NCBI RefSeq assembly: GCF_025336525.1
Contig: NZ_JAOCZP010000005.1
Location: forward strand, 124,001-188,000
Direction: 5' to 3'
Source of the DNA: Chelativorans salis
GTDB lineage: Bacteria; Pseudomonadota; Alphaproteobacteria; Rhizobiales; Rhizobiaceae
Length of the DNA: 64,000 bases
The notes under the pieces are model-generated. The model did not search any database. It was given only the letters and a program-made list of their open reading frames with translations, and had not been told where the DNA came from. The position numbers were made by a program, and so were the translations under genes. This document shows, one piece after another, positions 18,872-42,371 of the stretch (position 1 is the first letter of the stretch; every line of letters starts with the position of its first letter).

Positions 18872-18904
18872 CATTCGGCGGCGAAACGAAGGGAGGAGAT
18901 GGAG

Positions 18905-25835: not shown

Positions 25836-25885
25836 CAATCAGAACTCCAGAATGCGGCGCGGCGGCCGGCAGGATTGGGATGCCG

Positions 25886-26383: not shown

Positions 26384-26475
26384 GAGCCTCCTCGTGTCCT
26401 TCGGCACAAGGTTCAATGGAGGTTCCGGCACCGAAGGATGCCGCCGGAGCCTTGTAGCCCGCTCTATTCCCGCCT

Positions 26476-27432
26476 CTACTCAATGACCCCGCTCTCCTTC
26501 AGGAAGACGCGCGTCTCGTTGCCGAAGTCCTCGATGAACTGCGCATATTCCTCGTGCGGCATGTAGGCGGCACGAAGGTTGGCGGCCTCATAGGCGGCCT
26601 TGTACTTCTCATCGGCGAGAACCTCCTGGACGGCGCGTTCCCACGCGGCAATCACGTCGTCCGGCAGGCCCTTGGGACCGGCAAGGCCGCGGAACTTGCG
26701 CACGACGACGTCGTAGCCGAGCTCCTCGACCGTCGGCAGGTCCGGAAAGGCTTCCAGACGCTCATCGCTGAAAGTGGCAAGTAGGCGCAGTTCCCCCGCT
26801 TCGAGCTGCGACTGGATTTCCTGCACCTCGCCAACGCCGATCTGCAGCGTGCCGTTCAAGACATTGATCAACAGATCGCCGCCACCCTCGTGGGTGACGA
26901 CCGCCGCATTGACGTCGGCAGCCGCCTTAAGCTGTTCAAGCGCCTGGCGCTCGAGCGAGGCGGGATTGGCCGCGCCCCATTGGCCGCGCCCTTCCCTCGC
27001 GTGGTCGATGACATCTTCGAGAGTCTGGTATTCGCTGTTCGCCGAGGTATAGATGACCTCGGGATCGATGAAGAAATTCACCAGCGGCTCGAGGTCGGTG
27101 TACTTGTATTCCGGGTCGGAGAGCAGCGACGTGTAGATGAAGGTCGGCGTCGTGGCATAGAATTTCGAGCCGTCCGGTGTTGATTGCGCGAGATTGGCCA
27201 TCGCCGCCGCGCCCGAGCCGCCCCTAACATTCTCGACGACGACATTGGCGCCGAGGATAGGGCCCAGATAGCGGGAAAGCTCGCGAAGGAAGACGTCGCT
27301 GCCACCGCCGGGACTCGAATGGGTGATCAGGGTCACTGTGTCGACGGGATAGTCCTCCTGCGCGTTCGCGCCGGCGATCATGCCGAACATGAACACCGCG
27401 CTTCCCGCTGCGAGTATGCGTTGTTTCCGCAT
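26476..27432 (-). CDS. tctC: TctC-family periplasmic binding protein
   Basis: 318 aa with signal peptide 1-24 (cleavage after GANA). Tripartite tricarboxylate receptor fold: ITHSSPGGGSDVFLREL and the carboxylate-binding VVVENVRGGSGAAAMANLA loop. Start 27432 has a GGGAGGGAG ribosome site. First gene of the tctC-tctB-tctA-prpD-SDR-abrB-tarD operon; a GntR-type palindrome lies about 110-125 bases upstream. Confidence 0.93.
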   Translation of the reverse strand: MRKQRILAAGSAVFMFGMIAGANAQEDYPVDTVTLITHSSPGGGSDVFLRELSRYLGPILGANVVVENVRGGSGAAAMANLAQSTPDGSKFYATTPTFIYTSLLSDPEYKYTDLEPLVNFFIDPEVIYTSANSEYQTLEDVIDHAREGRGQWGAANPASLERQALEQLKAAADVNAAVVTHEGGGDLLINVLNGTLQIGVGEVQEIQSQLEAGELRLLATFSDERLEAFPDLPTVEELGYDVVVRKFRGLAGPKGLPDDVIAAWERAVQEVLADEKYKAAYEAANLRAAYMPHEEYAQFIEDFGNETRVFLKESGVIE

Positions 27433-27539
27433 GGCTGCTCCCTCCCAAAACCGGCCAAGGCGACGCGAACCAAGGCCACGTGACATGACGGGCTGAAAAG
27501 CCCCTGCGCCGGTCGTTCTGGCGGAGGTTAGGCGCCATG

Positions 27540-27558
27540 ATTGTCAAATGTCAACAAT
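27540..27558 (-). promoter_or_regulatory. GntR-type operator A, upstream of tctC operon
   Basis: On the minus strand the sequence reads ATTGTTGACATTTGACAAT, with outer arms ATTGT/ACAAT and 13 of 17 core positions equal to operator B. It contains TTGACA, a consensus -35 element for the tctC operon, so a bound regulator would block polymerase. Confidence 0.6.
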
Positions 27559-27575
27559 TTTGTCTCTGCTCCTGC

Positions 27576-28691
27576 TTAGTCGACGCGAATGCGTGTGGCG
27601 CGGAAGGCATCCTCGTCGAGCGTCAGCCCCAGTCCGGGACGATCGGGGATTGTGATGAAGCCGTCTTCCGGCTTCGGCGCGTCGGTGAACAGCGTCTCGC
27701 CGACGGCAACCATGCCGAGATGCCATTCCACGATCCAGCCGTTCATCATGCCGGCCATCAGGTGCATGTTGAACAGCGGCCAACCGCCGCCATTGGCAAT
27801 CGGCATGTTGTAGATCTGCGCGAGATGGGCGGCCTTGCGTGCTTCCGTATAGCCGCCGCAATAGGTGACGTTGGGCTGCAGGATGTCGAGCGCCTGATGG
27901 TCGATGAACTCGCGCAGGCGCCAGCGGTGCCCTTCCATCTGGCCGGCGGCAAGCGGAATCCTGGTTGCGCGGCGTAGATCGGCGAGCGCCCGGGCGTCGT
28001 TCTGCATCAACGGTTCCTCGAACCATGTGATGCGGCAGCCCTCGATCTCGCGGCAGAGATATTTCGCCTCGACGGGATTGAAGAGGTAGTTGGCATCGAT
28101 CATCAGGTCGATATCCGGCCCCACCGCGTCGCGGATCGCCTTCACGCGGCGCGCATCTTCGCGCCAACCGCCGGGATCGACGGCGACCACCGACTTCAGC
28201 GCCCTAAAGCCGTTCGCCACATGAAGCTTTGCCGCTTCTTTCAGCATGTCGACGTCGTACTGCGGAAAACCGAAGGTGACATAGGCGGGCACCTTCTCGC
28301 GCGCATTGCCGAGCAGCGCCGCAATGGAACGCCCTTGCGTCTTGCCGATGATGTCCCAAAGCGCGATGTCGAGGCAGGAGAGCGCCATGGAGATCGTGCC
28401 TGTCATGGCGCGCGGGTTGAGCTTCTGCCAGACGCATTGGTGGATTTTCTCCAGATCCCGCACGTCCATGCCCTTTACGCAGGGCAGCACGTGCTCTTCC
28501 AGCGCGACGATGACAGAACGCGCGAGGAAATGGCCGGTGAGGCCGTAGCCGACATGGCCTTCATCGGTCTCAACACGGCAGAAGACGAAATGCTTCTGCT
28601 CCTCGCGGCCGTAGCCTTGAACCCGGCCCTCGAGCAGAGGAATTTCAATCGAGAAGCCATGCAGGCTTGCCTTGATGTCCGCTATTCTCAC
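27576..28691 (-). CDS. Mandelate racemase/muconate lactonizing enzyme-type enolase superfamily protein
   Basis: 371 aa. N-terminal capping domain and a barrel with Mg-ligand candidates in MIDANYLFN and TWFEEPL, then AAGQMEGHRW and QPNVTYCGGYTEA. The second-strand lysine region reads LKSVVAV, with one lysine instead of the KxK pair of racemases, and AGQ/ANGG segments differ from TarD, so its reaction differs from the gene at 19982. The GTG at 28691 is preferred because a perfect AAGGAGG lies 9 bases upstream; the ATG at 28715 precedes that ribosome site. Divergent from the hydrolase gene across operator B. Likely an acid-sugar or hydroxy-acid dehydratase/racemase. Confidence 0.82.
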   Translation of the reverse strand: MRIADIKASLHGFSIEIPLLEGRVQGYGREEQKHFVFCRVETDEGHVGYGLTGHFLARSVIVALEEHVLPCVKGMDVRDLEKIHQCVWQKLNPRAMTGTISMALSCLDIALWDIIGKTQGRSIAALLGNAREKVPAYVTFGFPQYDVDMLKEAAKLHVANGFRALKSVVAVDPGGWREDARRVKAIRDAVGPDIDLMIDANYLFNPVEAKYLCREIEGCRITWFEEPLMQNDARALADLRRATRIPLAAGQMEGHRWRLREFIDHQALDILQPNVTYCGGYTEARKAAHLAQIYNMPIANGGGWPLFNMHLMAGMMNGWIVEWHLGMVAVGETLFTDAPKPEDGFITIPDRPGLGLTLDEDAFRATRIRVD

Positions 28692-28738
28692 GTCGCGTCC
28701 CTCCTTCTGATCCATGGATTGTGTAGATCATCCCAATA

Positions 28739-28755
28739 TTGTAGACAATCTACAA
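28739..28755. promoter_or_regulatory. GntR-type operator B, perfect palindrome in divergent promoter
   Basis: TTGTAGA CAA TCTACAA, 7-bp perfect arms around a 3-base centre, lies between the enolase-type gene (minus) and the dehalogenase-like gene (plus), only a few bases before the AGGAG ribosome site of the latter. A partial second copy (TTGTGTAGATCAT) precedes it at about 28719. This is the best example of the motif in the window. Confidence 0.7.
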
Positions 28756-28771
28756 AAAGAGGAGATTGCTC

Positions 28772-29713
28772 ATGCGCACGTCAGAGATGCCGGCCCTTGG
28801 AACCACGACCACGCTAATGGAGGGTTTCCGGCGAGAGCGGGTGCGCACGCGCGGGGCAGAGATCAATGTTGCAATCGGCGGCGAGGGCCCGCCCCTGCTG
28901 CTCCTGCACGGCAACCCCCTCACCCATGTGAGCTGGCACGAGATCGCGCCGACGCTGGCGAAGAGCTTCACGGTCGTGGCACCCGACCTGCGCGGCTATG
29001 GCGACAGCTCCAAGCCCGACGGCGGGGCGGACCACGCCGCCTATACATTTCGCGCCATGGGCGAGGACAATTTCGACCTTATGGACCATTTCGGCTTTGA
29101 GCGCTTCCAGGTCGCCGGCCACGACCGCGGCGCACGCGTCGCCTTCCGCATGGCACTCGACCGGCCGGAACGTGTCGAGCGGCTTGCCGCGCTCGACATC
29201 GTGCCGACCCATCACGTCTTGACCAACGTGTCGCTCGGTTGGGGGCTCGAGAGCTATCACTGGTTCTTCATGGCGCAGAAGGCGCCCTTCCCTGAGAAGC
29301 TGCTTACCGCCGATCTCGATTATTACATCGATTACAAGCTGAACAAGAAAGGCGTGGGACTGGAGATATTCAGCGAGGCGGCGATGGCGGAATACAAGCG
29401 TTGTACCACGCCGGAGCAGATCCACGCGGTCTGCGAAGACTATCGCGCCACCGTCACGCTGGATTTCGAAATGGACACGGCCGATTACGGCGTGAAGAAG
29501 ATCGCCTGTCCGGTGCTCGCCATCTGGGGCTCTAACAGCCATTGCGGGCGGCACTTCAAGCCGCTCGAGGCATGGAGCGAATGGGTGGACGATTTGCGCG
29601 GCTTTGCGGTGCCGACTGGGCACTATCCGGCCGAGCAGCGGCCCGACCTCATCTACCCCGCCTTCTGGTCGTTCTTCAGCGGACGCGAACCCGAACTTGT
29701 GGACGCGGCATGA
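28772..29713 (+). CDS. Fluoroacetate/haloacetate dehalogenase-like alpha/beta hydrolase
   Basis: 313 aa. In fluoroacetate dehalogenases an Asp displaces halide and His hydrolyses the ester. Visible residues: nucleophile Asp118 in GHDRGAR with Arg119 and Arg122 for the substrate carboxylate, Asp142 (LDIVPT), the halide-pocket pair His163-Trp164 (YHWFFMAQ), Tyr224 (EDYRA) and His284 (GHYPAE). The whole pocket known from the Rhodopseudomonas enzyme is thus kept. ATG 28772 has an AGGAG ribosome site. It overlaps the rhodanese gene by 4 bases (ATGA). Epoxide hydrolase is the alternative, but the HW and double-Arg pattern favours dehalogenase. Confidence 0.75.
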   Translation: MRTSEMPALGTTTTLMEGFRRERVRTRGAEINVAIGGEGPPLLLLHGNPLTHVSWHEIAPTLAKSFTVVAPDLRGYGDSSKPDGGADHAAYTFRAMGEDNFDLMDHFGFERFQVAGHDRGARVAFRMALDRPERVERLAALDIVPTHHVLTNVSLGWGLESYHWFFMAQKAPFPEKLLTADLDYYIDYKLNKKGVGLEIFSEAAMAEYKRCTTPEQIHAVCEDYRATVTLDFEMDTADYGVKKIACPVLAIWGSNSHCGRHFKPLEAWSEWVDDLRGFAVPTGHYPAEQRPDLIYPAFWSFFSGREPELVDAA

Positions 29714-31293
29714 GGGAGATTGACGCAGTGGCGGCGCGCGCGGCGGTCCATAGCGGCCAGGAAGTAGCGTTTCTCGATGTCCGCGAGGCGGGGCAATTTG
29801 GTGAAGGCCATGCGCTGTTCGCGGTGCCCGCCCCCTATTCGCGGCTGGAGGCGGCTGTGCCGGGCCTCGTTCCCCGCCCCCATATCGACATTCTCCTGAT
29901 CGACGACGGCGACGGCGTCGCACACAGCGCCGCACGGGCGCTCGACCGCCTTGGCTACACGGCCGTCTCGGTCGTTGCCGGTGGCATGTCCGCCTGGGTC
30001 GCCGCCGGCTTTCCCGTCTACAAGGGGGTGAACGTTTCCTCCAAGATGCTGGGAGAACTGGCGGAAACGGCCTGGCACCCCGAGATGGTCAAGCCGCAAA
30101 CGCTCCATGACTGGCGGCGGTCCGGGCGGCCATTCCGCCTCTTCGATGCCCGGCCGCCGGAGGAATATGCCAGGATGCGTGTGCCCGGCGCCGTCTGCCT
30201 TCCGAATGGCGAATTAGCCCATCGGCTGAATGCGGCAGGTCTCGATAAGGAGCAGCCGGTCGTCGTCACCTGCGCCGGGCGCACGCGCGGCATCGTCGGC
30301 GCCATCGGACTGAGGCTGGCGGGTCACAAGGTGCCTGTGTTCGCGCTCGAAAACGGCACGCAAGGCTGGGCGCTCGCCGGCTTCGACCTCGAACGGGGAA
30401 ACAAGGCCGAGCCTTACCCGCCGCTGCCGGGCTATGCGCTCGAAGAGGCAAAGGCGCGCGCCCGCGCCATCTGTGACCGATTTGGAATTCCCCTCGTAAC
30501 AGCGGCTGAAGCCGACCGTCTTCTCCACGACCAGCGCCGCACCACTTATCTCTTCGACGTGCGCTCGCGCGAAGAGGCGTTGCGCGACCGCGTTCCCGAG
30601 GCTGTCCATGCACCTTCAGGCCAGCTTGTACAGGCGACAGACCAATGGGTTGGCGTGCGCCGGTCCCGACTCATCCTCATCGATGACGGGGGTCTGCGCG
30701 CAGCACTCGCAGCGTTCTGGCTGGCACAACTCGGCTATACCGTCCACGTCGCCTTGATCGATGATGCGATGCGCAGGGTCAACCGCCCGGAGGGCGCGGC
30801 TCCCCGTGAGAGAGCGCCTGTCCCAAGAAAGGTCGATGCGGCCGACGCGCTTCGCGATGTCCGCTCGGAGCGGGGTTGCTTCATCGACCTTCGATCCTCC
30901 CTTGCCTACCGGCGCGAGCATGTGGACGGCGCCGTCTGGTCGATCCGGCCGCGCCTTTTGAGAGCGGCCGCCCCATACGGGGATCGCCGTATTCATCTAA
31001 TCGCGGACGATCAGGAGATAGCGTGTTTCGCCGTCGACGACCTTCGGGCGTCGGGCTTCCATTCGGCCTTCGTGGTCGAAGGCAGTCATGCCGCTCTTGT
31101 CGCCGCCGGGGCAGCCTGCCAATCCTCACCCGACGAGCCGCCGGATCGCAAGGCGATCGACCACCTCTTCTTCGTCCACGACCGACACGACGGCAATCTT
31201 GAAGCCTCGCGCCACTATCTCGCCTGGGAAACGGGGCTGGTCGATCAGTTGGATGCGCTGGAGCATGCCGAATTCCGTCTCTTCGAACCCTAA
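29710..31293 (+). CDS. Four-domain rhodanese-like protein
   Basis: 527 aa with four successive rhodanese-type units: about 15-105 (AFLDVREAGQF ... GGMSAWVAAGFPVY), 130-228 (LFDARPPEEY ... GWALAGFD), 262-355 (LFDVRSREEA ...) and 375-465 (FIDLRSSLAY ...). Only the second has a catalytic cysteine, Cys188 in VTCAGRTRG; the equivalent loop reads LIDDGDG in unit 1, LIDDGG in unit 3 and IADDQ in unit 4. A fifth piece (about 480-527) is helical. No signal peptide. Known rhodaneses transfer sulfane sulfur through Cys; the three inactive units may bind partners. Translationally coupled to the dehalogenase-like gene; stop overlaps the tctA stop convergently. Confidence 0.85.
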   Translation: MREIDAVAARAAVHSGQEVAFLDVREAGQFGEGHALFAVPAPYSRLEAAVPGLVPRPHIDILLIDDGDGVAHSAARALDRLGYTAVSVVAGGMSAWVAAGFPVYKGVNVSSKMLGELAETAWHPEMVKPQTLHDWRRSGRPFRLFDARPPEEYARMRVPGAVCLPNGELAHRLNAAGLDKEQPVVVTCAGRTRGIVGAIGLRLAGHKVPVFALENGTQGWALAGFDLERGNKAEPYPPLPGYALEEAKARARAICDRFGIPLVTAAEADRLLHDQRRTTYLFDVRSREEALRDRVPEAVHAPSGQLVQATDQWVGVRRSRLILIDDGGLRAALAAFWLAQLGYTVHVALIDDAMRRVNRPEGAAPRERAPVPRKVDAADALRDVRSERGCFIDLRSSLAYRREHVDGAVWSIRPRLLRAAAPYGDRRIHLIADDQEIACFAVDDLRASGFHSAFVVEGSHAALVAAGAACQSSPDEPPDRKAIDHLFFVHDRHDGNLEASRHYLAWETGLVDQLDALEHAEFRLFEP

Positions 31294-32822
31294 GCCTTTG
31301 GCGCCGGCTTCTGCTGCCCAACGGCGGCATCGCCCGCTCGGCGCCGCGCCTTCGACACGGCAGTTATCGTCACCGACACCACCATGATGGCGAGGATCAG
31401 CAATGCGCCCGGCCGCTCCAGCGCATAGGCCGGATCGCCGCCGCTGACCTGATACGTGCGCAGGAGGTTGGATTCGAGCAGGCCGCCGAGAAGCAGGCCC
31501 ACCACTGTTGCCGCCACCGGATAGCCGTAACGCACCATCGCCCAGCCGAGCAGCGAGAAGACAAAGAGCGTGATCGGTCCTGACGACGTGCCGTCGATCG
31601 CGTAGGAGCCGAAAGTGGAGACGACAAGGATCGTCGGGATCAGGTAGCGCAAAGGCACGCGCACCACGTAGCCGGCGATATAGACGAAGCCGAGGCCGAC
31701 CATGAGCAGGAGGACGGCCTGGGCGAAGTTCGAGAAGATGATGGCGTAGACGATGTCCTTGTTGTGGCCGATGAAGCTCGGCCCGCCAACGATGTTGTGC
31801 ATGGCAAAGGCGGCGAGCAGGATCGCGGTGGCGCCGCCGCCGGGAATGCCGAGGGCAAGCATGGTGGCCATTGCGCCGCCTTCGGAGGAGGAGTTCGCTG
31901 CCTCCGCGGCGATGACGCCCTTCGGATTGCCCTGCCCGAAGGTATCGCCGTCCGGCGCGTTGCGCTTCGTCTCCGAATAGGAAAGCAGGTTGGAGATCGA
32001 GGAGCCGACGCCGGGGATGGCGCCGACGAGGATACCGATGACGGCACCGCGTAAGATGATGGCCGGATAGGAGATCGCTTGGCGGAGACCCGAGACGATC
32101 TGCCGGAAGCTAATCTTGCGCGAGGCCTCGTCCTCGACAAGATAGGTCGTGTTGATCAGGCCGAGAAGCTGGCTGGCGGCGAGCAGCCCCATCATGGCGG
32201 GGATCGTAGGAATGCCGTCAAGCAGCCAGGGAACGCCCATCGTGCCGCGGATGAAGCCTGCCGTGTTCATGCCGACGGTGCCGAGCAGCACACCGAAGAC
32301 ACCGGCCAGCAGGCCGCGGGCGAGCGATCGGCCGGCGAGCGAGCCGAGCAGCATGAGGCCCCATGCGGCGACGAAGAAGAGTTCGAGCGGCCCCATCTTC
32401 AGCACCACCCTGGAGATGGGTGCGATCAGCACGAAGAGCAGGATGTAGCTCGACAGCGTGCCGATTACCGAAGAGGCGAGCGCGATGCCGAGCGCCTTGT
32501 TGTGCTGTCCGCTGCGGGCCATCGGGTAGCCGTCGAAGGTGGTGGCGACGGCCGACGAGGTGCCGGGAATGTTCATCAGGACGGCCGGCACCGAACCGCC
32601 GAAGCCGGCGCCGGTGTAGATCGAGGTCAGGAAGATGATCGCCGGCAGGAAATCCATGTAGAGCGTCATCGGCAGGAAGATGGCCATGGCCATCGTGATG
32701 GAGATCCCCGGCATGGCGCCGAAGAAGAGGCCGATGATCAGCCCGGGGATGAGGTAGATCCACGCCGACCAGTCCGACGTGAGCAGGCTGAACGCGCCGC
32801 CGACCGAGTTGAAGTCAATCAT
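31290..32822 (-). CDS. tctA: TctA-family large permease (second system)
   Basis: 510 aa multi-helix membrane protein with GAMPGISITMAMAIFLPMTLY, GSVPAVLMNIPGTSSAVAT and LGIPGGGATAILLAAFAMHN motifs. ATG 32822 is preferred over the GTG one codon before. Forms the channel of the second TTT system with the two genes upstream. Confidence 0.92.
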   Translation of the reverse strand: MIDFNSVGGAFSLLTSDWSAWIYLIPGLIIGLFFGAMPGISITMAMAIFLPMTLYMDFLPAIIFLTSIYTGAGFGGSVPAVLMNIPGTSSAVATTFDGYPMARSGQHNKALGIALASSVIGTLSSYILLFVLIAPISRVVLKMGPLELFFVAAWGLMLLGSLAGRSLARGLLAGVFGVLLGTVGMNTAGFIRGTMGVPWLLDGIPTIPAMMGLLAASQLLGLINTTYLVEDEASRKISFRQIVSGLRQAISYPAIILRGAVIGILVGAIPGVGSSISNLLSYSETKRNAPDGDTFGQGNPKGVIAAEAANSSSEGGAMATMLALGIPGGGATAILLAAFAMHNIVGGPSFIGHNKDIVYAIIFSNFAQAVLLLMVGLGFVYIAGYVVRVPLRYLIPTILVVSTFGSYAIDGTSSGPITLFVFSLLGWAMVRYGYPVAATVVGLLLGGLLESNLLRTYQVSGGDPAYALERPGALLILAIMVVSVTITAVSKARRRAGDAAVGQQKPAPKA

Positions 32823-32831
32823 CACACGGCC

Positions 32832-33302
32832 TCACAGCACGGTCAGCGGGAACGGGAATGGGATCAGCGCGCCGTAGCCGTAGATCAAAAGCATGGTGAA
32901 GGCAGCCGAGAACGACAAGTTGAGCCACCAGCGGCGCTCGCCGCAGATGAAGAGGGCGGCGATCATGAAGAGGAAGGTCGCGACGTCGAAGCCGACGATT
33001 TCAAGCGTCGTGGTGAAGGCGCCGAAGCAGGCAGCCAGCGCCGCCACTTTGCCTAAGTCGCTGAGGCTTTCGGCGGGCACTTCCTCGTCCGCACCAGGCA
33101 CGGTCCGCTTGAAACATTGCGGGACAACCAGGGCGACGAGCATGAGCGCGAGGACCGAGGCCGGCTGCACCAGGAGCAGGTTGTTGACCTTCAGCGAGGT
33201 GGCGCGCGCGTCCATCCAGTAGGCGACGACGACGCCGGCGATGACCGCAAGCAGCGCCAGATGTCCCCACATGACGACCAGCCTGCCTTGACCGGGTTGC
33301 AT
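32832..33302 (-). CDS. tctB: TctB-family small permease (second system)
   Basis: 156 aa with four hydrophobic segments (LALLAVIAGVVVAYW, LVQPASVLALMLVALVV, AALAACFGAFTTTLEIV, NLSFSAAFTMLLIYGYGALI). A GGGAGA ribosome site precedes ATG 33302. It lies 9 bases before tctA and 69 bases after tctC. Confidence 0.88.
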   Translation of the reverse strand: MQPGQGRLVVMWGHLALLAVIAGVVVAYWMDARATSLKVNNLLLVQPASVLALMLVALVVPQCFKRTVPGADEEVPAESLSDLGKVAALAACFGAFTTTLEIVGFDVATFLFMIAALFICGERRWWLNLSFSAAFTMLLIYGYGALIPFPFPLTVL

Positions 33303-33371
33303 GGTCGGCTCTCCCGTTCAGAAAGGGAGAGGGGCCGACGCGCGGGCGGCCCCTCATCGCTATGTGCTGCC

Positions 33372-34373
33372 TCAGGTCCCCTGAAGGAGATCGACGTGTT
33401 GCTGCATCACTCTTGCCGTAGCGGCGAGGGATTTGTTCGATTCCTCGGGCCCATACCAGTCGGTGGCGAGCTGCTGGTTCTTCAGTGCCTCGATGGCGGC
33501 GGGATTCTTCGAGGCTTCTTCGACGGCCGCGGCGAGGATCTCGTAGCGGTCCGGGTGGTTCTCGAGCATTGAAGCGTGCACGCCCCAGCCCCGCTGCGAC
33601 CCGACGACAAACTCCGCGTCCTCTCCCGCGACATCGGTAATGAGGGCTGCATCCCAGCCGTCCCGCTGGCGCGTGTCGAAGACGATGAGAGGCGTGATCT
33701 GCTCGGCCAGCGGTAGGAAGCCTTCGCCACCAACGAGACCGATATCGACCACGCCGCCGGCCGTGGCATTGCGGGTCGGTCCGCCGCCGTCATAGGTTAC
33801 CAGCCTTAGGCCCTCGCGGGAAATGTCATTGGCGTCGCAGAGCAGCATCAGGTTCACGAGATCGGCCGAGGCGGGTTGGATGCCGATCGACAGGCTGCTG
33901 TTGTCCTCCTTGAGGCGGGCGATCACATCGTCGGCGGACGTCAGATCGGAACCGGCGCTCGTCGCCATCAGCGTATAGTCGCGAGACGGCAAGTTGATCA
34001 TGTGGAAATCTTCGACAGTGAAGGTCGCATCCTGTGTCAGGATATTGAGCGGAATGTAGGGCGCGGCCGACGTGCACAGGATGGTGTAGCCGTCGTCGGG
34101 CTGCTGAAGAAAATAGGTATGGCCGAGCATCGCCCCCGCGCCGCCGCGATTGATCACGGTGAGCGGCTGCCCGAGCTTTTCCTGCAGAAACGGCGCGAAG
34201 GCACGTGCCAGACGGTCGTTGTAGCCGCCGGTGTCGAATGGAACGACGATGTTGATCGGCCGATCCGGATAGCTCTCCTGCGCTCTCAGGATGGATGGCG
34301 TGCCGAGCGTCGCCGCGGCGACGCCGCCCGATGTCAGTTGCAGCATCCGGCGACGCGTAATGGCCTTTTTCAT
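33372..34373 (-). CDS. tctC: TctC-family binding protein with Tat-type leader (second system)
   Basis: 333 aa. The leader TRRRMLQLTSGGVAAATLG is a twin-arginine type signal, unlike the Sec-type leaders of the other two TctC proteins here. The mature part has INIVVPFDTGGYNDRLAR and VINRGGAGAMLGH, the receptor motifs. ATG 34373 follows GGAGGAG. First gene of tctCBA-2, divergent from prpD copy 3 with two palindromes between them. Confidence 0.9.
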   Translation of the reverse strand: MKKAITRRRMLQLTSGGVAAATLGTPSILRAQESYPDRPINIVVPFDTGGYNDRLARAFAPFLQEKLGQPLTVINRGGAGAMLGHTYFLQQPDDGYTILCTSAAPYIPLNILTQDATFTVEDFHMINLPSRDYTLMATSAGSDLTSADDVIARLKEDNSSLSIGIQPASADLVNLMLLCDANDISREGLRLVTYDGGGPTRNATAGGVVDIGLVGGEGFLPLAEQITPLIVFDTRQRDGWDAALITDVAGEDAEFVVGSQRGWGVHASMLENHPDRYEILAAAVEEASKNPAAIEALKNQQLATDWYGPEESNKSLAATARVMQQHVDLLQGT

Positions 34374-34472
34374 TGTCTCCTCCGATTGTCCTGGCTGGAC
34401 TTGTGTTGCGTTTCGGCCGAAAGGCCGGCCACTCCCTTGGCTGAGCATTGTAACGCTACGAACCCTTTGGTA

Positions 34473-34486
34473 AACTGTCAACAGTT
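34473..34486. promoter_or_regulatory. Palindrome C, possible GntR operator for tctC-2
   Basis: AACTGT CA ACAGTT is a perfect 6-2-6 inverted repeat 100 bases upstream of tctC-2. It shares TGTCAACA with the other operators but has a shorter centre, so it is a weaker match to the family. Confidence 0.4.
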
Positions 34487-34604
34487 ATGTTCCAGGTTTC
34501 CTGCGAATGCACCTTACCCACAATCCCGTCAGAACATCAGGGAAACTGGGGATATTGCCCGTGGAAGTCGCGTGGGGGAAAGGTTTCTTCAATCAGCCAT
34601 AATT

Positions 34605-34620
34605 TTGTTGACAATCAACA
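34605..34620. promoter_or_regulatory. GntR-type operator D, upstream of prpD operon
   Basis: TTGTTGACAATCAACA contains perfect arms TGTTGA/TCAACA around CAA and agrees with operator B at 14 of 17 aligned positions. It overlaps a TTGACA -35 sequence about 100 bases upstream of the prpD start. Confidence 0.62.
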
Positions 34621-34715
34621 CCTATTCACGTTTGTTCCGGCAAGCGACGAGGCACTGTCCGCCGGCCCCGCCGGGAGGTGCACCTGTCCGATGCCGTCAC
34701 AAGAGGGAGAGAGGA

Positions 34716-36140
34716 ATGACTGCCGTCACCGCAGGAACAACCGCGACCGAGACGACGGGGCTTACCCGCGAGGTGGCTGCCTTCGTCCACGACGCGACAC
34801 TCCGCGATCTGCCGGAGGTCGTCTTGGCGAACGGCAAGAAGTCGATTCTCGACGGTCTCGGGCTTGCCCTTTCCGGCTCCGTCGCGCGCTCCGGGGACTA
34901 TGTGCGCCGGCATCTGGACGATCTCGGCGCGACTGGCGGCACGGCGACCGTCATCGGCTGGAACCGCAAGGTGGCGCCGCGTTTTGCCGCCTTCGCCAAC
35001 GGCGTCGGCATTCACGCTGACGATTATGATGATACGCAGCTCGCTGCGGCCAAGGACCGCGTCTACGGGCTTCTGACGCATCCCACCGCCCCTGCCCTTC
35101 CGGCCGCGCTCGCCATGGGTGAAACGCTCGGCGCCTCGGGTGCCGACGTGATACTCGCCTATCACCTCGGCGTCGAGGTGGAGTGCAAGATCGCAGAGGC
35201 CATCAACCCGCGCCACTACCAGACCGGCTTCCACGCCACAGCCACCTGCGGCACCTTCGCTTCCGCCGCGGCCGCCGGCCGGCTCGTAGGCTTCGACGTC
35301 GAGGCGTTGCAGCGCGCGCTGTCGATCGCCGGCAGCCAGTCGGCCGGCCTCAGAGAGAACTTCGGCACGATGACCAAGCCTTTCCACGCCGGGCGGTCGT
35401 CGGAAAGCGGAATCGTTGCCGTGCAGTTCGCCTCCTATGGCTGGACGTCGACGGACAAGATCCTGGAGGCGCCTCGCGGCTTCTTCTCGGCGGCTGGAGG
35501 CGGCTACGATCCGAACGCCATCCACGGCAAGCTCGGCAATCCCTGGACCTTCGATAGCCCCGGCGTCTCAATCAAGCCGCACCCGTCGGGTTCCCTCACC
35601 CATCCCGGCATGACCGAGATGCAGCGCCTCATCCGGGAAAACGGCATCAAGGCCGAGGACGTCGCCTCGGTGCGCGTCGGCACCAACTCCAACATGCCGA
35701 ACGCTCTCATCCACCACCGCCCGCAGAACGAGCTCCAGGCGAAATTCTCCATGGAGTTCTGCATGGCGATCCTCTTGCTCGAAGGCCGCGCGGGCTTGAA
35801 CGAGTTCACCGACGAGACGGTGCTGCGTGAGGACGTTCAGAAGATGATCGAGAAGGTCGATTTCGTCGTTGACGAGCGCGCCGAGGCGGCCGGCTACCAC
35901 CTGATGACGACCTATATCGACATCGCGCTGAAGGACGGGCGCACTATCTCGGGCAAGGCGGATTTCGGCAAGGGCAGCCCGGTAAACCCCATGAGCTACG
36001 ACGAGGTCGCTGACAAGTTCCTGGAATGCGCGGAATTCGCTCGCTGGGACATGGCCAAGGCGAAGTGCGTCGTCGACATGGTAGCGGCGTTCGAAACGCT
36101 CCCGGACATCCGCAAGCTGATGGCACTTGTCAGCAACTGA
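34716..36140 (+). CDS. MmgE/PrpD family protein (copy 3)
   Basis: 474 aa, full length. Acidic motif HADDYDDTQLA with a short insertion before LLTHPTAPALP, then KIAEAINPRHYQTGFH in the helical core and IKPHPSGSLTHPG leading into the lid domain. Start 34716 follows GGGAGAGAGGA and gives the family's normal N-terminus. Head of a plus-strand operon (prpD-abrB-SDR-prpD-dehydrogenases). It is the intact relative of the broken gene at 18905. Confidence 0.9.
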   Translation: MTAVTAGTTATETTGLTREVAAFVHDATLRDLPEVVLANGKKSILDGLGLALSGSVARSGDYVRRHLDDLGATGGTATVIGWNRKVAPRFAAFANGVGIHADDYDDTQLAAAKDRVYGLLTHPTAPALPAALAMGETLGASGADVILAYHLGVEVECKIAEAINPRHYQTGFHATATCGTFASAAAAGRLVGFDVEALQRALSIAGSQSAGLRENFGTMTKPFHAGRSSESGIVAVQFASYGWTSTDKILEAPRGFFSAAGGGYDPNAIHGKLGNPWTFDSPGVSIKPHPSGSLTHPGMTEMQRLIRENGIKAEDVASVRVGTNSNMPNALIHHRPQNELQAKFSMEFCMAILLLEGRAGLNEFTDETVLREDVQKMIEKVDFVVDERAEAAGYHLMTTYIDIALKDGRTISGKADFGKGSPVNPMSYDEVADKFLECAEFARWDMAKAKCVVDMVAAFETLPDIRKLMALVSN

Positions 36141-36146
36141 AGCGCC

Positions 36147-37274
36147 ATGGACGCCAAGACATTCGCCGATTCGCGCGCAAGGCGCCCTGGTCCTCCGGAC
36201 AAGTCCGGGCGGTTCCGTTCGCCACGATGGTGGGGGCTGGTTGTCCTCACCTATGCGGCCGCCGTGCTTGCAGGTGCCGCGGCGTCCTTCGTCAACATGC
36301 CGCTACCCTGGATGCTCGGGCCGTTTTTCGTGCTCGCCGCTTTCTCGGTCGCCGGCTTCGAATTTGCGCTTGTTCCCCTGGGGCGGGAGCTTGGCCAAGT
36401 GGCGATCGGCCTGGCCGTGGGCCTGCGTTTCACGCCGGCCGTCCTTGCTGCCACGGCAAGTCTGCTCCCGGCGATGATCGGCGCCACACTCTATGTGATC
36501 GCCTTTACGATGCTGGCGGCCTTCCTCTTCAAGCCGCTGGCGCGGGTGGACGATGTGACGGCGTTCTTCGCCACTGCGGCCGGCGGGGTGGCCGACATGG
36601 CAACGGTAGCGAAGGAACGTGGCGGCGCGCCCGGCTCCGTCGCCGTCGTGCACGCCATGCGGGTCTCGGGCGTGGTCGCCCTGGTCCCGTTTCTCGTGGT
36701 GCTGTTCGGCCGGCCGGGCGGTGCCCCGGAGACGGCTGCCAGCGGCTCGTCGAATCTGCTGCTCGTCCTTCTGGCCCTCGCGCTCGGTTTCCTCACGGCT
36801 CGACTCCTGAAACCGACGCCACTGCCCAATCCGTGGCTCGTCGGGCCGATCTTCACGGGCATCGTCATCGGCGTGAGCGGCCTGTTCGAGGTCGGGATTC
36901 CCTCGTTGCTGATCGTTATCGCGCAGATCGTGCTCGGCACCTGGCTCGGATGCCAGTTCCGCCGCAATCTCCTGTCCGCCCTGCCCCGGGTGACGTCGGC
37001 GGCCATTGTCACCTCGCTCTTCATGATCGGCTGCGCCGCGCTCGGCGCGCTGGTGCTCACGGCCGCGACGGGCCTGCCGTTCACGACCAGCTTCCTGTCA
37101 CTGGCGCCGGCGGCCGTGACTGAGATGGTGCTGACGGCGCAAGTGATGCATCTGGAGGCGGAGATCGTCACCGCCTTCCATGTAATGCGGATCGCCGTCG
37201 TGTCCTCGACCGTGCTCCTCGTCTTCAGGCTCTATTCGACACTCAGAGGAGGCCGCGTTGGACCTTCGCTATAA
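36147..37274 (+). CDS. AbrB family membrane permease (second copy)
   Basis: 375 aa, about ten helices in two repeats, with MPLPWMLGPFFVLAA, AAGGVADMATVAKERGG and LAPAAVTEMVLTAQVM motifs matching the copy at 21148. The N-terminus carries a charged 30-residue extension before the first helix. It begins 6 bases after prpD; its last 17 bases overlap the SDR gene. Confidence 0.85.
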   Translation: MDAKTFADSRARRPGPPDKSGRFRSPRWWGLVVLTYAAAVLAGAAASFVNMPLPWMLGPFFVLAAFSVAGFEFALVPLGRELGQVAIGLAVGLRFTPAVLAATASLLPAMIGATLYVIAFTMLAAFLFKPLARVDDVTAFFATAAGGVADMATVAKERGGAPGSVAVVHAMRVSGVVALVPFLVVLFGRPGGAPETAASGSSNLLLVLLALALGFLTARLLKPTPLPNPWLVGPIFTGIVIGVSGLFEVGIPSLLIVIAQIVLGTWLGCQFRRNLLSALPRVTSAAIVTSLFMIGCAALGALVLTAATGLPFTTSFLSLAPAAVTEMVLTAQVMHLEAEIVTAFHVMRIAVVSSTVLLVFRLYSTLRGGRVGPSL

Positions 37275-38049
37275 TGATCGCCGCGCCCTTATCGTGGGCG
37301 GTAGCTACGGCATCGGCAAGGCTTCGGCCGCGCTCATGGCGGGAGAAGGCGCCGACGTCATCATCGCCTCGCGCAGTGCCGAGAACCTCGAAACTGCGGC
37401 TGAAGCCATCGCCGCGGACGCAGGCAGGCGTCCGGCAACTCTTGTCTGCGACGTGACGGAAACCGGCGCCGGCCGGATCCTGTCCGCAGCCGTCGAAGAG
37501 CGTTGGGGCGGGCTCGACGTGCTGGTTGCTGCTGTCGGCGGGAGCATCCGCTCCGCCTTCACCGACCTGACAGACGACGACTGGCTCGCCAACTACACCT
37601 TCAACGTGCTCTCGACGGTGCGAGCGATCCGAGCTCTTCTTCCCGCTCTTGAGAAGGGGCGGAACCCTGCCATCGTCACGCTCGGCGCGGCGGCTTCGAA
37701 AATGCCCTACCAGCACCAGATCGTCTCCAACGTGCACAAGGCGGGCCTGCTCGGCCTGACTAAGACGCTGGCCGCTGAGCTCGCCGACCGCAACATCCGC
37801 ATCAACTGCGTTGCTCCCGGTCGTACGCTGACGCCGCTTTGGCAGAAGCGCGCCGACAGAATGGCCGTGGAACAGAATCGCGACCGCCAGGCGGTTCTGG
37901 AAGAATTCTCGAAGGATATACCGCTCGCCCGCTTCGGCACGCCGGAGGAAGTGGCGGTCATGGTCGCGTGGCTCGCCAGCCCGCTTGCAAGCTACGTCAC
38001 CGGCCAGGCGGTCAATGTGGACGGCGGCATCGCCCGCGGATTGCTCTGA
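37258..38049 (+). CDS. Short-chain dehydrogenase/reductase family, non-canonical active site (second copy)
   Basis: 263 aa. Cofactor motif GGSYGIG at residues 14-20. The YxxxK position reads SNVHK (in VSNVHKAGLLGLTK) and the serine region reads LGAAASK, so Tyr and Ser of the classical triad are missing, as in the other SDR of this locus though with a different replacement. The start is TTG at 37258, backed by GAGGAGG 5 bases upstream; no ATG fits. Overlaps abrB and precedes prpD copy 4 by 14 bases. Confidence 0.83.
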   Translation: MDLRYNDRRALIVGGSYGIGKASAALMAGEGADVIIASRSAENLETAAEAIAADAGRRPATLVCDVTETGAGRILSAAVEERWGGLDVLVAAVGGSIRSAFTDLTDDDWLANYTFNVLSTVRAIRALLPALEKGRNPAIVTLGAAASKMPYQHQIVSNVHKAGLLGLTKTLAAELADRNIRINCVAPGRTLTPLWQKRADRMAVEQNRDRQAVLEEFSKDIPLARFGTPEEVAVMVAWLASPLASYVTGQAVNVDGGIARGLL

Positions 38050-38063
38050 GGAGAGAAAACACA

Positions 38064-39458
38064 ATGAGCCTTCACCAGGAAACCGCCCCCGGGGTTCCCC
38101 ATGTCACCCAGATCCTTGCTGACTGGGCGGTGAATATCAAAGGGGCCGACATTCCCACCGAGGTGCGGCGCGAAGGGCTTCGCACCTTCGTCAACTGGAC
38201 CGGCTGCGCCGTCGGCGGCGCACGCCATGAGACCGTCGACCGCGCGCTCGCCGCCGTCAGGCCCTTCTCCGGCAAAGCGACGTCGACCGTGCTCGGCCGG
38301 CCGGACAGGCTCGACGCCCTGCACGCCGCGCTCCTCAACGGAATCTCCTCGCACGTGCTCGACTATGACGACACGCATCTGAAGACGATCATTCATCCGG
38401 CAGGCCCCGTCGCCTCGGCGCTGCTGGCGCTTGCCGAAATGCGGCCGATCTCCGGCTACGACCTCTTGACGGCATTGATCGTCGGCATGGAGGCGGAGTG
38501 CCGCATCGGCAACTGCGTATACCCACACCATTACGACCGCGGCTGGCACATCACGGGCACCGCCGGCGTGTTCGGCGCGGCCGCTGCCGTCGGCAAGGCC
38601 ATCGGCCTTTCCAGCCGGCAGGTGCGCTGGGCCTTCGGCATCGCGGCCACCCAGTCGTCCGGCCTGCGCGAGATGTTCGGCACGATGACGAAAAGCTTCC
38701 ATCCCGGCCGCGCGGCGCAGAACGGCATGTTCGCTGCACTTCTGGCGGAGGCGGACTACGACAGCTCCGAGCGCGCCATCGAGGCGCCACGCGGCTTCGC
38801 CAACGTCATGTCGGACAAGCAGGACTATGCCGAGATCGTTGACGATCTCGGCACGCGCTGGGAAGCGGCGCTCAACAGCTACAAGCCATTTGCCTGCGGC
38901 ATCGTCATCCATCCGGCGATCGACGGCTGCATTCAGCTGCGCGAGGAACTCGGCGACAAGGTAAAGGCGATCCGATCGGTCACGCTCAAGACCCATCCGC
39001 TGGTCCTCGAGTTGACCGGAAAAAGAGCGCCGAAGTCCGGACTCGAAGGTAAATTCAGCGTCTACCACGCCGCCGCCGCCGCGCTTCTGCGCGGAGACGG
39101 CGGGCCAATGGCCTTCACCAACGAAATGGTGAATGAAGCCGACATCATCGCGCTCCGCGACACCATCACGGCGACGGCCGATCCGGCCTGTCATGAAGCG
39201 TCGGTCGATATCGACATCACTTTCGAGGACGGTTCGACGGCGACCAAGCATGTCGAACGCGCGATCGGCAGCCGCGATGTGCCGCTGACCGACGCGCAGA
39301 TCGATCGTAAGTTCGTCAACCAATCGGTCCCGGTGGTCGGCAAGGCGGTGACGGAAGGGCTCCTGAAGACCGCCTGGAACCTGGAGCAGCTCGCCGACGC
39401 AGCCGAGGTCGCACGCGCGAGTATCCCCGACAACGAGGAGAAAGCAGCAGCCGAATGA
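38064..39458 (+). CDS. MmgE/PrpD family protein (copy 4)
   Basis: 464 aa. Motif SHVLDYDDTHLKTIIHPAG, the classical PrpD form (DYDDTH followed by HPAG), helical core RIGNCVYPHHYDRGWHITG, and lid motif YKPFACGIVIHPAIDG. ATG 38064 follows GGAGAGAAAA. It overlaps the next dehydrogenase by 4 bases. Of the six copies this one is nearest the 2-methylcitrate/aconitate-type consensus. Confidence 0.9.
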   Translation: MSLHQETAPGVPHVTQILADWAVNIKGADIPTEVRREGLRTFVNWTGCAVGGARHETVDRALAAVRPFSGKATSTVLGRPDRLDALHAALLNGISSHVLDYDDTHLKTIIHPAGPVASALLALAEMRPISGYDLLTALIVGMEAECRIGNCVYPHHYDRGWHITGTAGVFGAAAAVGKAIGLSSRQVRWAFGIAATQSSGLREMFGTMTKSFHPGRAAQNGMFAALLAEADYDSSERAIEAPRGFANVMSDKQDYAEIVDDLGTRWEAALNSYKPFACGIVIHPAIDGCIQLREELGDKVKAIRSVTLKTHPLVLELTGKRAPKSGLEGKFSVYHAAAAALLRGDGGPMAFTNEMVNEADIIALRDTITATADPACHEASVDIDITFEDGSTATKHVERAIGSRDVPLTDAQIDRKFVNQSVPVVGKAVTEGLLKTAWNLEQLADAAEVARASIPDNEEKAAAE

Positions 39459-40555
39459 ACGAGACAAAGAAAGCCGCACTCAAGATCGGCATCCTCGAGG
39501 GCGACGACATCGGCCACGAAGTGGTGCCGGCCTCGGTGAGGATCGCGAAGGCAGCGGCCGAGGCGGCCGGAATGGCTATTGACTGGGTCGACGTGCCGAT
39601 CGGCCGGCGCGCGCTCGACACCCACGGCTTCACGATGCCGGAGGGCACGCTCGATACACTCGGCGCCCTGGATGGCTGGATTCTGGGACCCATCGGCCAC
39701 CGCGAATATCCGAAGATACCGGAAGCCATCAATCCGCACCCGATCCTCCGGAAGCGCTTCGACCTCTTCGCCAATGTACGGCCCACCCGCTCGTTCCCGG
39801 GCATCGGCTGTCTGCACGAAGGCATCGACATGGTCATCGTGCGCGAGAACAACGAAGGCTTTCAGCCCGACCGCAATGTGGTGGCGGGCTCAGGCGAGTT
39901 CCGGCCTACCCACGACGTCACGATCTCGGTGCGCGTCATCACGGTGGAGGGCTCGAGCAAGGTGGCGCGCGCAGCCTTCGAGATAGCGCGCTCGCGCGAG
40001 AAGCGCCTGACGCTTGTCCACAAGAACACCGTCTATAAGCTTGGCTGTGGCATGTTTGTCGACGCCTGCTACGCGGTGGCGAAGGAATTTCCCGACGTGG
40101 AGGTGGACGAGGTGATCGTCGACACCATGGCGCTGCGCCTCGTGCGCGAGCCGCAGCGTTTCGACACGGTGGTCACTACCAACATGTTCGGCGACATCCT
40201 GACGGATGAAGCCGCCGGCCTCGTCGGCGGGCTCGGCATGGCGCCGGGGCTGTGCATCGGCCGCGGTTCCATCGCCATGGCGCAGGCTACCCATGGTTCT
40301 GCACCGGATATTGCCGGCAAGGGTATTGCCAATCCCTACGCGATGATCGAATCCACGCGCATGCTGTTCGATTGGATGGGGCACAACCGCAAGATGGATG
40401 CAGCACTTGAGATGTCGCGCATCATGAAGTCCGGCATAGATGCCGCTCTTGCCGATCCCGCCACCCGAACACCGGACATCCGCGGAACCGGAACGCAGGC
40501 CGATATGGTCGAGGGAATTTTGAGAGGCATGGAGAAGGCCGTTGCGCACGCATAG
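39455..40555 (+). CDS. Isocitrate/isopropylmalate dehydrogenase family protein
   Basis: 366 aa beta-decarboxylating dehydrogenase fold. Motifs: RKRFDLFANVRPTRS for substrate carboxylates, VRENNEGFQ, the catalytic Lys in VHKNTVYK, and TTNMFGDILTDEAAGL with metal-binding aspartates. NAD(P)-linked oxidation and decarboxylation of a 2-hydroxyacid with a 3-carboxyl group (malate-, isocitrate-, isopropylmalate-like) is expected. ATGA overlap with prpD copy 4. Substrate likely the product of the PrpD step (inference). Confidence 0.9.
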   Translation: MNETKKAALKIGILEGDDIGHEVVPASVRIAKAAAEAAGMAIDWVDVPIGRRALDTHGFTMPEGTLDTLGALDGWILGPIGHREYPKIPEAINPHPILRKRFDLFANVRPTRSFPGIGCLHEGIDMVIVRENNEGFQPDRNVVAGSGEFRPTHDVTISVRVITVEGSSKVARAAFEIARSREKRLTLVHKNTVYKLGCGMFVDACYAVAKEFPDVEVDEVIVDTMALRLVREPQRFDTVVTTNMFGDILTDEAAGLVGGLGMAPGLCIGRGSIAMAQATHGSAPDIAGKGIANPYAMIESTRMLFDWMGHNRKMDAALEMSRIMKSGIDAALADPATRTPDIRGTGTQADMVEGILRGMEKAVAHA

Positions 40556-41615
40556 GATCGCCGCAATCGGCGGGGATGGGGTCGGGCCGGAGGTTATAGA
40601 GGCGGGCATTTCCGTCATCGATGCGCTAGCCGGGAGAGACGGCGGCTTTGGGGTGAAGGCGACGCGCTTCGACTGGGGTTCCGACCACTACCGCCGCACC
40701 GGCCGCATGATGCCGGAGGACGGCGTCGAGCAGCTTCGCTCCTTCGACGCCATCTACTTCGGCGCCGTGGGTGATCCGGATATCCCCGACCACATTACGC
40801 TCTGGGATCTGCGGCTTGCCATTTGCCAGGGCCTCGACCAGTTCGCCAATGTCCGCCCGACGAAGCTTCTGGGCGGCATGACCGGCCCCTTGCGGCCGGA
40901 GCTCGGCCAGGAAATCGACTGGGTCATCGTGCGCGAGAATTCGGAAGGCGAATATGCCGGTGTCGGCGGCCGCGCTCACCGGGCGCTGCCGATCGAAGTG
41001 GCGATGGACGTTGCCGTGTTCACCCGCGCCGGCATCGAGCGCATCGCGCGCTTTGCCTGTGAGACGGCGATGGCGCGACCGCGCCGGCGGCTCACCATCG
41101 TCACCAAGTCCAACGCACAGCGCCACGGCATGGTGTTGTGGGACGAAGTCTGCCGGGAAGTTGTCGCCAGCTTCCCCGAATTGGAGGTCGATTGGAAGCT
41201 CGTCGACGCAATGGCGGCGATGATGGTGACCCGGCCCGGCCAGTTCGATACGATTCTCGCCACCAATCTCCACGCCGACATCCTGTCGGACCTTGCTTCC
41301 GCGCTGACGGGGAGTCTCGGCAACGGCGCGACCGCCAATATCGACCCGACAGGGGAGAACCCGTCGATGTTCGAGCCGATCCACGGCTCGGCCTTCGATA
41401 TAATGGGAAAGGGTATCGCCAATCCGATCGGCGCCTTCTGGACCAGCGCTATGATGCTCGATCATCTCGGCGAGAAAAACGCGGCTGAACGGCTGATGGC
41501 GGCAATCGCCGATGTGAGCCGCGCCGGCCCTTTCACGCCCGATCTCGGAGGGCAAGCCGATACGGCAGCGGTAACACGGGCGGTGATCGACGGCATAAGG
41601 GCCGGGCCTGGCTAA
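40542..41615 (+). CDS. Tartrate/D-malate dehydrogenase-like enzyme (TtuC/DmlA family)
   Basis: 357 aa. N-terminal IAAIGGDGVGPEVI, FDAIYFGAVGDPDIPDHITLW, CQGLDQFANVRPTKLL and VRENSEGEYAGVGG are the hallmarks of TtuC and DmlA; catalytic Lys lies in TIVTKSN and the metal-binding ATNLHADILSDLASALTG follows. It oxidises tartrate or D-malate with NAD and Mn/Mg. Start is TTG at 40542 with GGAGAAGG upstream, overlapping the previous gene by 14 bases. A TtuC-like and a TarD-like enzyme in one regulon argues for tartrate-type substrates. Confidence 0.85.
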   Translation: MRTHRIAAIGGDGVGPEVIEAGISVIDALAGRDGGFGVKATRFDWGSDHYRRTGRMMPEDGVEQLRSFDAIYFGAVGDPDIPDHITLWDLRLAICQGLDQFANVRPTKLLGGMTGPLRPELGQEIDWVIVRENSEGEYAGVGGRAHRALPIEVAMDVAVFTRAGIERIARFACETAMARPRRRLTIVTKSNAQRHGMVLWDEVCREVVASFPELEVDWKLVDAMAAMMVTRPGQFDTILATNLHADILSDLASALTGSLGNGATANIDPTGENPSMFEPIHGSAFDIMGKGIANPIGAFWTSAMMLDHLGEKNAAERLMAAIADVSRAGPFTPDLGGQADTAAVTRAVIDGIRAGPG

Positions 41616-41641
41616 AAGGCTTGTTGCGGCTGGCCGAGCTG

Positions 41642-41658
41642 TTGTTTATTGCCTACAA
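41642..41658. promoter_or_regulatory. GntR-type operator E, upstream of gntR
   Basis: The minus strand reads TTGTAGGCAATAAACAA, equal to operator B at 14 of 17 positions. It lies in the 63-base gap between the dehydrogenase operon and the GntR gene, 20 bases before the likely start, a position that fits autoregulation. Confidence 0.58.
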
Positions 41659-41678: not shown

Positions 41679-42371
41679 ATGTCGGCAGGGCAGGAACAAG
41701 ACCTGAAAAGCGATCTCCTGATCTTGAGAACGTCGTCGCTTACCGGCGCCCTCGAACGCGAGCTCGAACATCTCATCCTGACCGGCGAATTGAAGCCCGG
41801 GGAACGGCTGAACGAGATCCAGCTCTCCACCCGCTTCGGTACGAGCCGGGGCCCGCTCAGGGAAGCGACCCGCAGCCTCCAGGCGAAAGGGCTGGTCGAC
41901 ATCATCCGCAACCGTGGTGTCTTTGTCCGCTCCGTCTCGCCGGACGAAGCGCTCGAGATCTACGATGTGCGGGCGGCGATCTTCGGGCTGGTCGGCAGGC
42001 TTCTCACCGACGTCGTCACAGACGCCATGCTGACGGAGCTTAACGACTATCTCGACCGGATGGACCGGATCGCGAGCAGTCAAAATTTTGACGAATACTA
42101 TCCTGTCAACCTCGCCTTCCACGACTACCTCGTCACCTCAACCGGCAACAAGACGCTGCTCCAAGAATACAAGAGCTTCGTCAACAAGCTGCATCTGTGC
42201 CGTGCCAGGGGCCTCGTGCAGGCCGGCGGCCTGTCCGTCTCCAACCGCGAGCACCGCGAAATGGTGGATTCGCTGGCCTCGGGCGACCGCTACCGCGCGC
42301 AGGAGGCCTTCTTCCGCCACGTCGAGCGCTCGAAGCACCGCTTCATGTCGACGCTGAAGGCGACGGACTAG
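41679..42371 (+). CDS. GntR-family regulator, FCD (FadR) subgroup
   Basis: 230 aa. N-terminal winged HTH about 20-85 (LEHLILTGELKPGERLNEIQLS; TSRGPLREATRSL), C-terminal all-helical FCD ligand domain with the metal-binding histidines His148 (AFHDYL), His192 (NREHREMV) and His214 (FFRHV). FCD regulators usually bind organic acids. The start is taken as ATG 41679; ATG 41667 is possible. Five palindromes matching FadR-type operators lie in front of neighbouring units and of this gene, making it the probable repressor of the 20-42 kb block. Confidence 0.88.
   Translation: MSAGQEQDLKSDLLILRTSSLTGALERELEHLILTGELKPGERLNEIQLSTRFGTSRGPLREATRSLQAKGLVDIIRNRGVFVRSVSPDEALEIYDVRAAIFGLVGRLLTDVVTDAMLTELNDYLDRMDRIASSQNFDEYYPVNLAFHDYLVTSTGNKTLLQEYKSFVNKLHLCRARGLVQAGGLSVSNREHREMVDSLASGDRYRAQEAFFRHVERSKHRFMSTLKATD

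Follow-up and report, generated by a model that had tools for sequence, protein, structure and literature searches.

The window analysed here is a stretch of 64,000 nucleotides of Chelativorans salis (contig NZ_JAOCZP010000005.1, positions 124,001 to 188,000). It carries at 21148-42371, in window numbering, 19 genes that appear to serve the uptake and catabolism of an organic acid, among them a gene for an FCD-type GntR regulator at 41679-42371 (the 41679 protein). We propose that this protein binds five operators and represses the six transcription units that form the cluster, its own gene included, and we hold this to be very probable. The sequence comparisons below give good support to a local FCD-GntR regulon, autoregulated and about 21 kb long; one FCD-type GntR protein with local operons is the best reading because the sites accompany the regulator and the cluster across genera and are at background elsewhere in the genomes scanned. 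The original prediction had one repressor controlling about 22 kb of duplicated acid-catabolism genes. The local regulon stands, but the paralogue pairs of acid genes are 26-36% identical and not recent duplicates.

The type of switch is well known, while the cluster it would control is uncharacterised. Among the matches listed in open-licence papers (titles and starts of abstracts) there was no description of this regulon, and literature searches on the letters of the motif, on GntR with fluoroacetate dehalogenase and on GntR with PrpD and a tripartite transporter likewise gave nothing on this system among the matches listed. Genes without a known joint function, whose order is for the most part kept in several alphaproteobacterial genera, are brought together as one candidate regulon with a defined operator motif and regulator. 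Knowing what effector the regulator responds to would give a lead to the pathway's substrate, and the motif of the sites is a genome-wide handle.

The five predicted operators and their positions

The 17-mer TTGTAGACAATCTACAA reported at 28739 is present exactly (28739-28755), and the related sites said to agree with it at 13-14 of 17 positions do so, with 14 of 17 at 34605 (+) and 41642 (-) and 13 of 17 at the site given as 27540 (-), which as a 17-mer occupies 27541-27557. All four are real, and a fifth must be added. The 'looser' site near 34473 lies at 34468-34484 (-), reads CTGTTGACAGTTTACCA and belongs to the set because it recurs at the same place in relatives; its score from the matrix described below is 22.9 bits. 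That hint mattered, and the predicted set is one of five sites (Table 1). The genes probably form six transcription units, judged by spacing and strand, and each of the proposed units is preceded by one of the five sites, with the enolase and hydrolase units sharing one. Placement before the regulator gene, before the prpD operon and in the enolase/hydrolase gap was as described, but the place of the 27541 site is the gap that separates tctC1 from the enolase gene. The label tarD used for this region is not supported: of the 15 NCBIfam matches to 27576-28715, none reaches its cut-off or bears the name tartrate dehydratase, and neither does any of the best 60 of its 82 PDB matches bear that name, although many of these have generic names.

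Table 1. Predicted operators and genes of the cluster (window positions; for operators, site identity is given against the rest of the region).
Feature	Position	Strand	Evidence and remarks
Predicted operator between enolase gene and tctC1, before tctC1-tctB1-tctA1-prpDc-SDR2-abrB2	27541..27557	-	class 1, contains TTGACA; 0.87 vs 0.37
Predicted operator in 56-bp gap of divergent enolase/hydrolase genes	28739..28755	+	class 2 (TAGACA), 16 bp before hydrolase ATG; 0.91 vs 0.54
Predicted operator before tctC2-tctB2-tctA2	34468..34484	-	class 1, contains TTGACA; 0.77 vs 0.36; matrix score 22.9 bits
Predicted operator before prpDa operon	34605..34621	+	class 1, contains TTGACA; 0.85 vs 0.36
Predicted operator before regulator gene	41642..41658	-	class 2 (TAGGCA), 20 bp before ATG; 0.84 vs 0.47
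abrB2, membrane protein	21148..22191	-	Pfam AbrB
SDR2, short-chain dehydrogenase	22188..22949	-	Pfam
prpDc, MmgE/PrpD family	22933..24318	-	Pfam
tctA1	24315..25838	-	Pfam TctA
tctB1	25886..26431	-	Pfam TctB
tctC1, substrate-binding protein of tripartite tricarboxylate transporter	26476..27486	-	Pfam TctC; start probably 27432 (signal peptide)
Mandelate racemase/muconate lactonizing protein (enolase superfamily), acid dehydratase-like	27576..28715	-	Pfam MR_MLE; all 15 NCBIfam matches below cut-off
Alpha/beta hydrolase, fluoroacetate-dehalogenase group	28772..29713	+	PDB 3qyj (Alr0039) 1.8e-83; fluoroacetate dehalogenases from 3.2e-77
Multi-domain rhodanese protein	29710..31293	+	Pfam Rhodanese, 3 stretches
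tctA2	31290..32825	-	Pfam
tctB2	32832..33302	-	Pfam
tctC2	33372..34373	-	Pfam TctC; start at MKKAITRRR judged from translation
prpDa, MmgE/PrpD family	34716..36140	+	best solved match iminodisuccinate (IDS) epimerase
abrB1, membrane protein	36147..37274	+	Pfam AbrB
SDR1, short-chain dehydrogenase	37258..38049	+	Pfam
prpDb, MmgE/PrpD family	38067..39458	+	best solved match Bacillus subtilis IRG1 (cis-aconitate decarboxylase)
Isocitrate/isopropylmalate dehydrogenase-family gene	39455..40555	+	Pfam Iso_dh; below NCBIfam cut-offs
Tartrate dehydrogenase/decarboxylase-like gene	40542..41615	+	NCBIfam TIGR02089 500.8 bits (cut-off 470.4); PDB 3flk 2.7e-87
FCD-type GntR regulator gene, 230 aa, proposed autoregulated repressor	41679..42371	+	Pfam GntR and FCD

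The sites fall into two classes by sequence and position. An overlap with TTGACA was claimed for two of them and holds for three, now that the fifth site is counted. In these class 1 sites (27541, 34468 and 34605) the hexamer reads towards the gene, about 95-110 bp before the likely start codons, those of tctC1 and tctC2 being judged from translations (the longest tctC1 frame would start 54 bp from its site). The class 2 sites, at 28739 and 41642, lie just before the probable ribosome-binding site. TTGACA is present in the sites before tctC1 in 11 of 11 species and in 19 of the 22 picked rows of the tctC2-prpDa gap, the other three being one wrong pick and two opposite-strand reads. At 95-110 bp from the likely start codons, a site could in principle work in activation, and the 41679 protein might then be an activator or dual-acting, not a plain repressor. 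We consider this improbable, as TTGACA inside the sites is a blocking-type position and the 16-20 bp that separate the two class 2 sites from their start codons also suit blocking.

More than a chance motif

When the window was searched for the 28739 17-mer with up to three mismatches, four strand matches were found at three places, against a shuffle mean of 0.01. In the organism's own 5.66-Mb genome, three of the four distinct places within two mismatches of the consensus TTGTWGACAATCWACAA are cluster sites, a test made partly circular by the derivation of that consensus from these sites; at three mismatches there were 22 rows against 12 for a reversed control. Using the site-logo pattern, which includes the window sites, four of five places with at most one mismatch lie inside the cluster, and with at most two mismatches the 33 rows (26 for the reversed pattern) are near background. 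A matrix built from 50 sites of relatives contains no window site; Chelativorans xinjiangense was left out of it, as of the footprint and logo, being near-identical to the window. With this matrix the five window sites are the top five places, at 32.1 to 22.9 bits, while the next distinct place scores 14.9 bits and the best of ten mononucleotide-shuffled windows 14.6 bits. This ranking is strong evidence, short of full independence.

The cluster is kept largely in order in Mesorhizobium, Rhizobium, Pseudorhizobium, Hoeflea, Alkalilacustris and the Rhizobiales genome IMCC20636, and is partial or rearranged in Aurantimonas, Roseibium, Rhodobacteraceae and others. Conservation of each site was scored on 12 fixed bases. 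The score was 11 or more in all 12 species for the tctC1-enolase site and in all 13 for the enolase-hydrolase site. It was 10 or more in 20 of 23 for the tctC-prp gap, of whose two picks the better was counted, and in 16 of 26 for the regulator-gene site. Across 11 species no 17-bp stretch of a region is as well conserved as its site: mean pair identity is 0.77-0.91 in the site columns versus 0.36-0.54 in the rest, with no other 17-bp stretch above 0.67 (the stretch before the regulator was trimmed to its last 110 bp). Predicted operators stand before neighbouring catabolic operons and the regulator gene and are conserved with them, the last in those 16 species only, as would be expected of a local regulon.

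Equal frequency of the motif elsewhere, which was to count against the original prediction, was not found. Whole-genome scans of relatives covered 23 of 28 loci (L041, L042, L044, L046 and L048 were left out) and 22 genomes, and gave 45 places with at most two mismatches. A hand tally puts 33 of these inside the cluster or next to the regulator gene; the 12 elsewhere compare with 13 for the reversed pattern. Without C. xinjiangense, the figure is 30 of 42. Among 16 genomes of the window's genus, the two with an orthologue of the regulator have three cluster sites each at this threshold, and the other 14, in which the best relatives of the regulator are about 42% identical or less, have six places together, each with two mismatches (reversed control, five). 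The counts do not include L048 (regulator 31% identical) and L127, in neither of which a cluster gene was found, or L129-L131, whose regulators are distant. One explanation for the shared sequence would be a conserved -35 promoter element or chance palindromes, and TTGACA does lie within three of the five sites. The two sites that lack it (TAGACA and TAGGCA) are equally conserved, however, conservation spans both flanking half-sites, and the motif is at background frequency elsewhere in the genomes; we give this explanation almost no credence.

Architecture of the operator

A consensus-free count of dyads in 66 intergenic regions of 24 species, both Chelativorans excluded, gave ATTGN4CAAT 31 times, TTGTN2ACAA 30 times and TTGTN9ACAA 26 times; in 20 shuffles no dyad was counted more than 6 times. 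In the site logo, ATTGT holds 7.4 bits, the adjacent ACAAT 7.5 bits and a third box 5.6 bits, and positions 8-9, at the centre of the supposed 17-bp palindrome, hold 1.76 bits each. Two results speak against a plain 17-bp palindrome as the whole story: such a palindrome would put no constraint on positions 8-9, which are conserved, and the two commonest dyads are those of a 12-bp core. TTGACA could itself fix positions 8-9 at three of the five sites; the 28739 and 41642 sites have no TTGACA, yet CA occupies these positions in all 11 rows of each. The operator therefore appears to read better as the 12-bp core ATTGTNNACAAT with a third half-site. The FCD-type character claimed for the palindrome is retained in its boxes, and its form is revised. 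FadR/FCD operators are defined, in PMC4494728, by TKGT and ACMA boxes with GT and AC 2-3 nt apart, and the core has such boxes with 2-nt spacing; the 41679 protein is its presumed binder.

We propose the following mechanism. The 41679 protein would bind the five operators within 27541-41658, one dimer on each core, with binding strengthened by a third half-site (ACAA) some 10 bp away from the middle of the core. The operators of tctC1, tctC2 and prpDa include the -35-like hexamer TTGACA; the other two, that of the enolase-hydrolase gap and that of the regulator gene, are found immediately upstream of the probable ribosome-binding site, where bound protein would obstruct the start region. The repressor would come off when a carboxylate, either imported or formed in the pathway, occupies its FCD domain. 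What the sequences show directly is the sites, with their positions, their conservation and their linkage to the regulator; the operon limits, the binding, the repression and the effector we infer from these. A further idea, which we think unlikely, is that the three half-sites form one operator with two overlapping registers, the 12-bp core and a 19-bp outer palindrome, and that the two classes of site build an order of derepression into an undescribed carboxylic-acid pathway with a dehalogenase-like hydrolase.

The regulator and other FCD proteins

The 41679 protein matches Pfam GntR at 58.7 bits (cut-off 27) and FCD at 76.9 bits (cut-off 24.3); an N-terminal GntR winged helix-turn-helix and a C-terminal FCD domain place it in the FadR/FCD subfamily. 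The C. xinjiangense regulator is 100% identical to it. Its best two solved matches, PDB 7xp0 (1.8e-19) and 3sxy (8.1e-17), are FCD regulators but distant kin. In a sequence alignment three of its histidines fall on histidines of 3sxy, which we take to be metal ligands of the FCD domain. At L038 and L113 the regulator orthologue was matched as two overlapping, frame-shift-like pieces, and the searches turned up no other cluster gene at that spot than a part of the tartrate dehydrogenase-like gene.

Another possibility is that the sites are bound by a different FCD regulator of the same genome, or shared by several including the 41679 protein. The genome holds 41 FCD places. Of the 40 other FCD genes 25 were examined, and 2 of these carry upstream a 17-mer with at most three mismatches, C15:81915 (39% identical) and C5:84144 (29%). 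No match that close was found upstream of the remaining 23, with starts estimated from alignment, and close copies of the full motif gather in relatives around the 41679-type regulator and the cluster, with background elsewhere. We see only a small chance that another regulator binds the sites, alone or alongside the 41679 protein. A regulator paralogue at C15:81873-82517 (-), 38-39% identical, has the related box CTGTTGACAATCTGAAA upstream and relatives in two further genomes (G001 and G005); its aligned stretch holds one in-frame TAG in three genomes of the genus.

Beyond this genome, 11 regulators are 42-46% identical (146 bits or more), and the exact core lies upstream of six (L042-L045, L088 and L092); in this upstream comparison 4 of 57 loci had no tblastn match and were not counted. 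Four of the six (L042-L045) are from Burkholderiales, and tblastn found no cluster gene beside them. Three clusters with 46% identical regulators and a different gene order have the box before prpDa (L117, L118 and L128).

Several observations weigh against the proposal of one regulator with its own local sites. The regions of the dyad count are orthologous and so not independent, and the matrix is not fully independent either, as its rows were picked with a window-derived pattern and 3 of the 50 are mis-picked or mis-registered. The regulator-gene site scores 8 of 12 or less in the other 10 of 26 species, whose regulators are 54-74% identical to the 41679 protein; this speaks against motif-based autoregulation in that part of the family. 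Five of the 11 regulators at 42-46% have no core upstream (L046, L089, L090, L091 and L093), although the clusters of L089 and L090 nonetheless have the box before prpDa (L118 and L128). The core is also common to other FCD regulators of the same genome, and occurs exactly, for example, upstream of C5:84144. Finally, a plain sigma-70 scan of three stretches returned no promoter that uses the TTGACA boxes. Consensus sigma-70 promoters at the sites are not favoured, the sole match being 9 of 12 at 34474-34447 (-), which uses TTTACC, with none in the other two stretches.

Genes of the cluster and the possible substrate

The substrate may be a small di- or tricarboxylic acid that carries a hydroxyl group or another substituent and is imported by the two tripartite transporters; we judge this from the best matches of the hydrolase, of the two PrpD proteins searched and of the last dehydrogenase. 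The hydrolase is, by sequence match, close kin of solved fluoroacetate dehalogenases and may share their activity. Tartrate is not favoured as the substrate: the last dehydrogenase passes the NCBIfam cut-off for tartrate dehydrogenase, but a homologue is missing at that spot in 9 of 22 loci (L021-L041 and L047), and the gene is therefore not a fixed part of the cluster. Two loci (L025 and L029) without this gene between the first dehydrogenase and the regulator have yet retained the regulator-gene operator.

The rhodanese gene is conserved beside the dehalogenase-like gene, and the two AbrB-type membrane proteins, one per large operon, accompany the two tripartite transporters. We note a further MmgE/PrpD gene at 18899-19876 (+), whose open frame ends after the N-terminal domain and which may be truncated; its neighbours are a LysR regulator, an acyl-CoA dehydrogenase and a CoA transferase.

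Comparison with known systems

The proposed operator resembles the FCD-type sites of the GntR family described in PMC4494728, many of which have a GT-N2-AC core and weaker extra half-sites 7-12 nt from the centre. In the cluster operator the third half-site is likewise weaker (5.6 bits against 7.4 and 7.5 for the core halves) and lies about 10 nt from the core centre. Atu1419, a VanR-group FCD repressor of Agrobacterium fabrum, differs in that its site is the 10-mer ATGTATACAT, with no third half-site described in the portion of PMC7797058 considered, and in being a tetramer able to loop 190 bp (PMC7797058). Between the two sites of the tctC2-prpDa gap the distance ranges from 137 to 184 bp in 11 of the 12 species measured; in the twelfth, Rhizobium sp. 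GN54, the spacing script made a wrong second pick and the true pair is 153 bp apart. Judged by this varying spacing, without a phase statistic, Atu1419-like looping between them is not favoured. The likeness lies elsewhere: Atu1419 acts through a number of short palindromes of identical sequence, placed at the promoter elements of nearby operons, some of them divergent and its own gene among them (PMC7797058), much as we propose for the 41679 protein.

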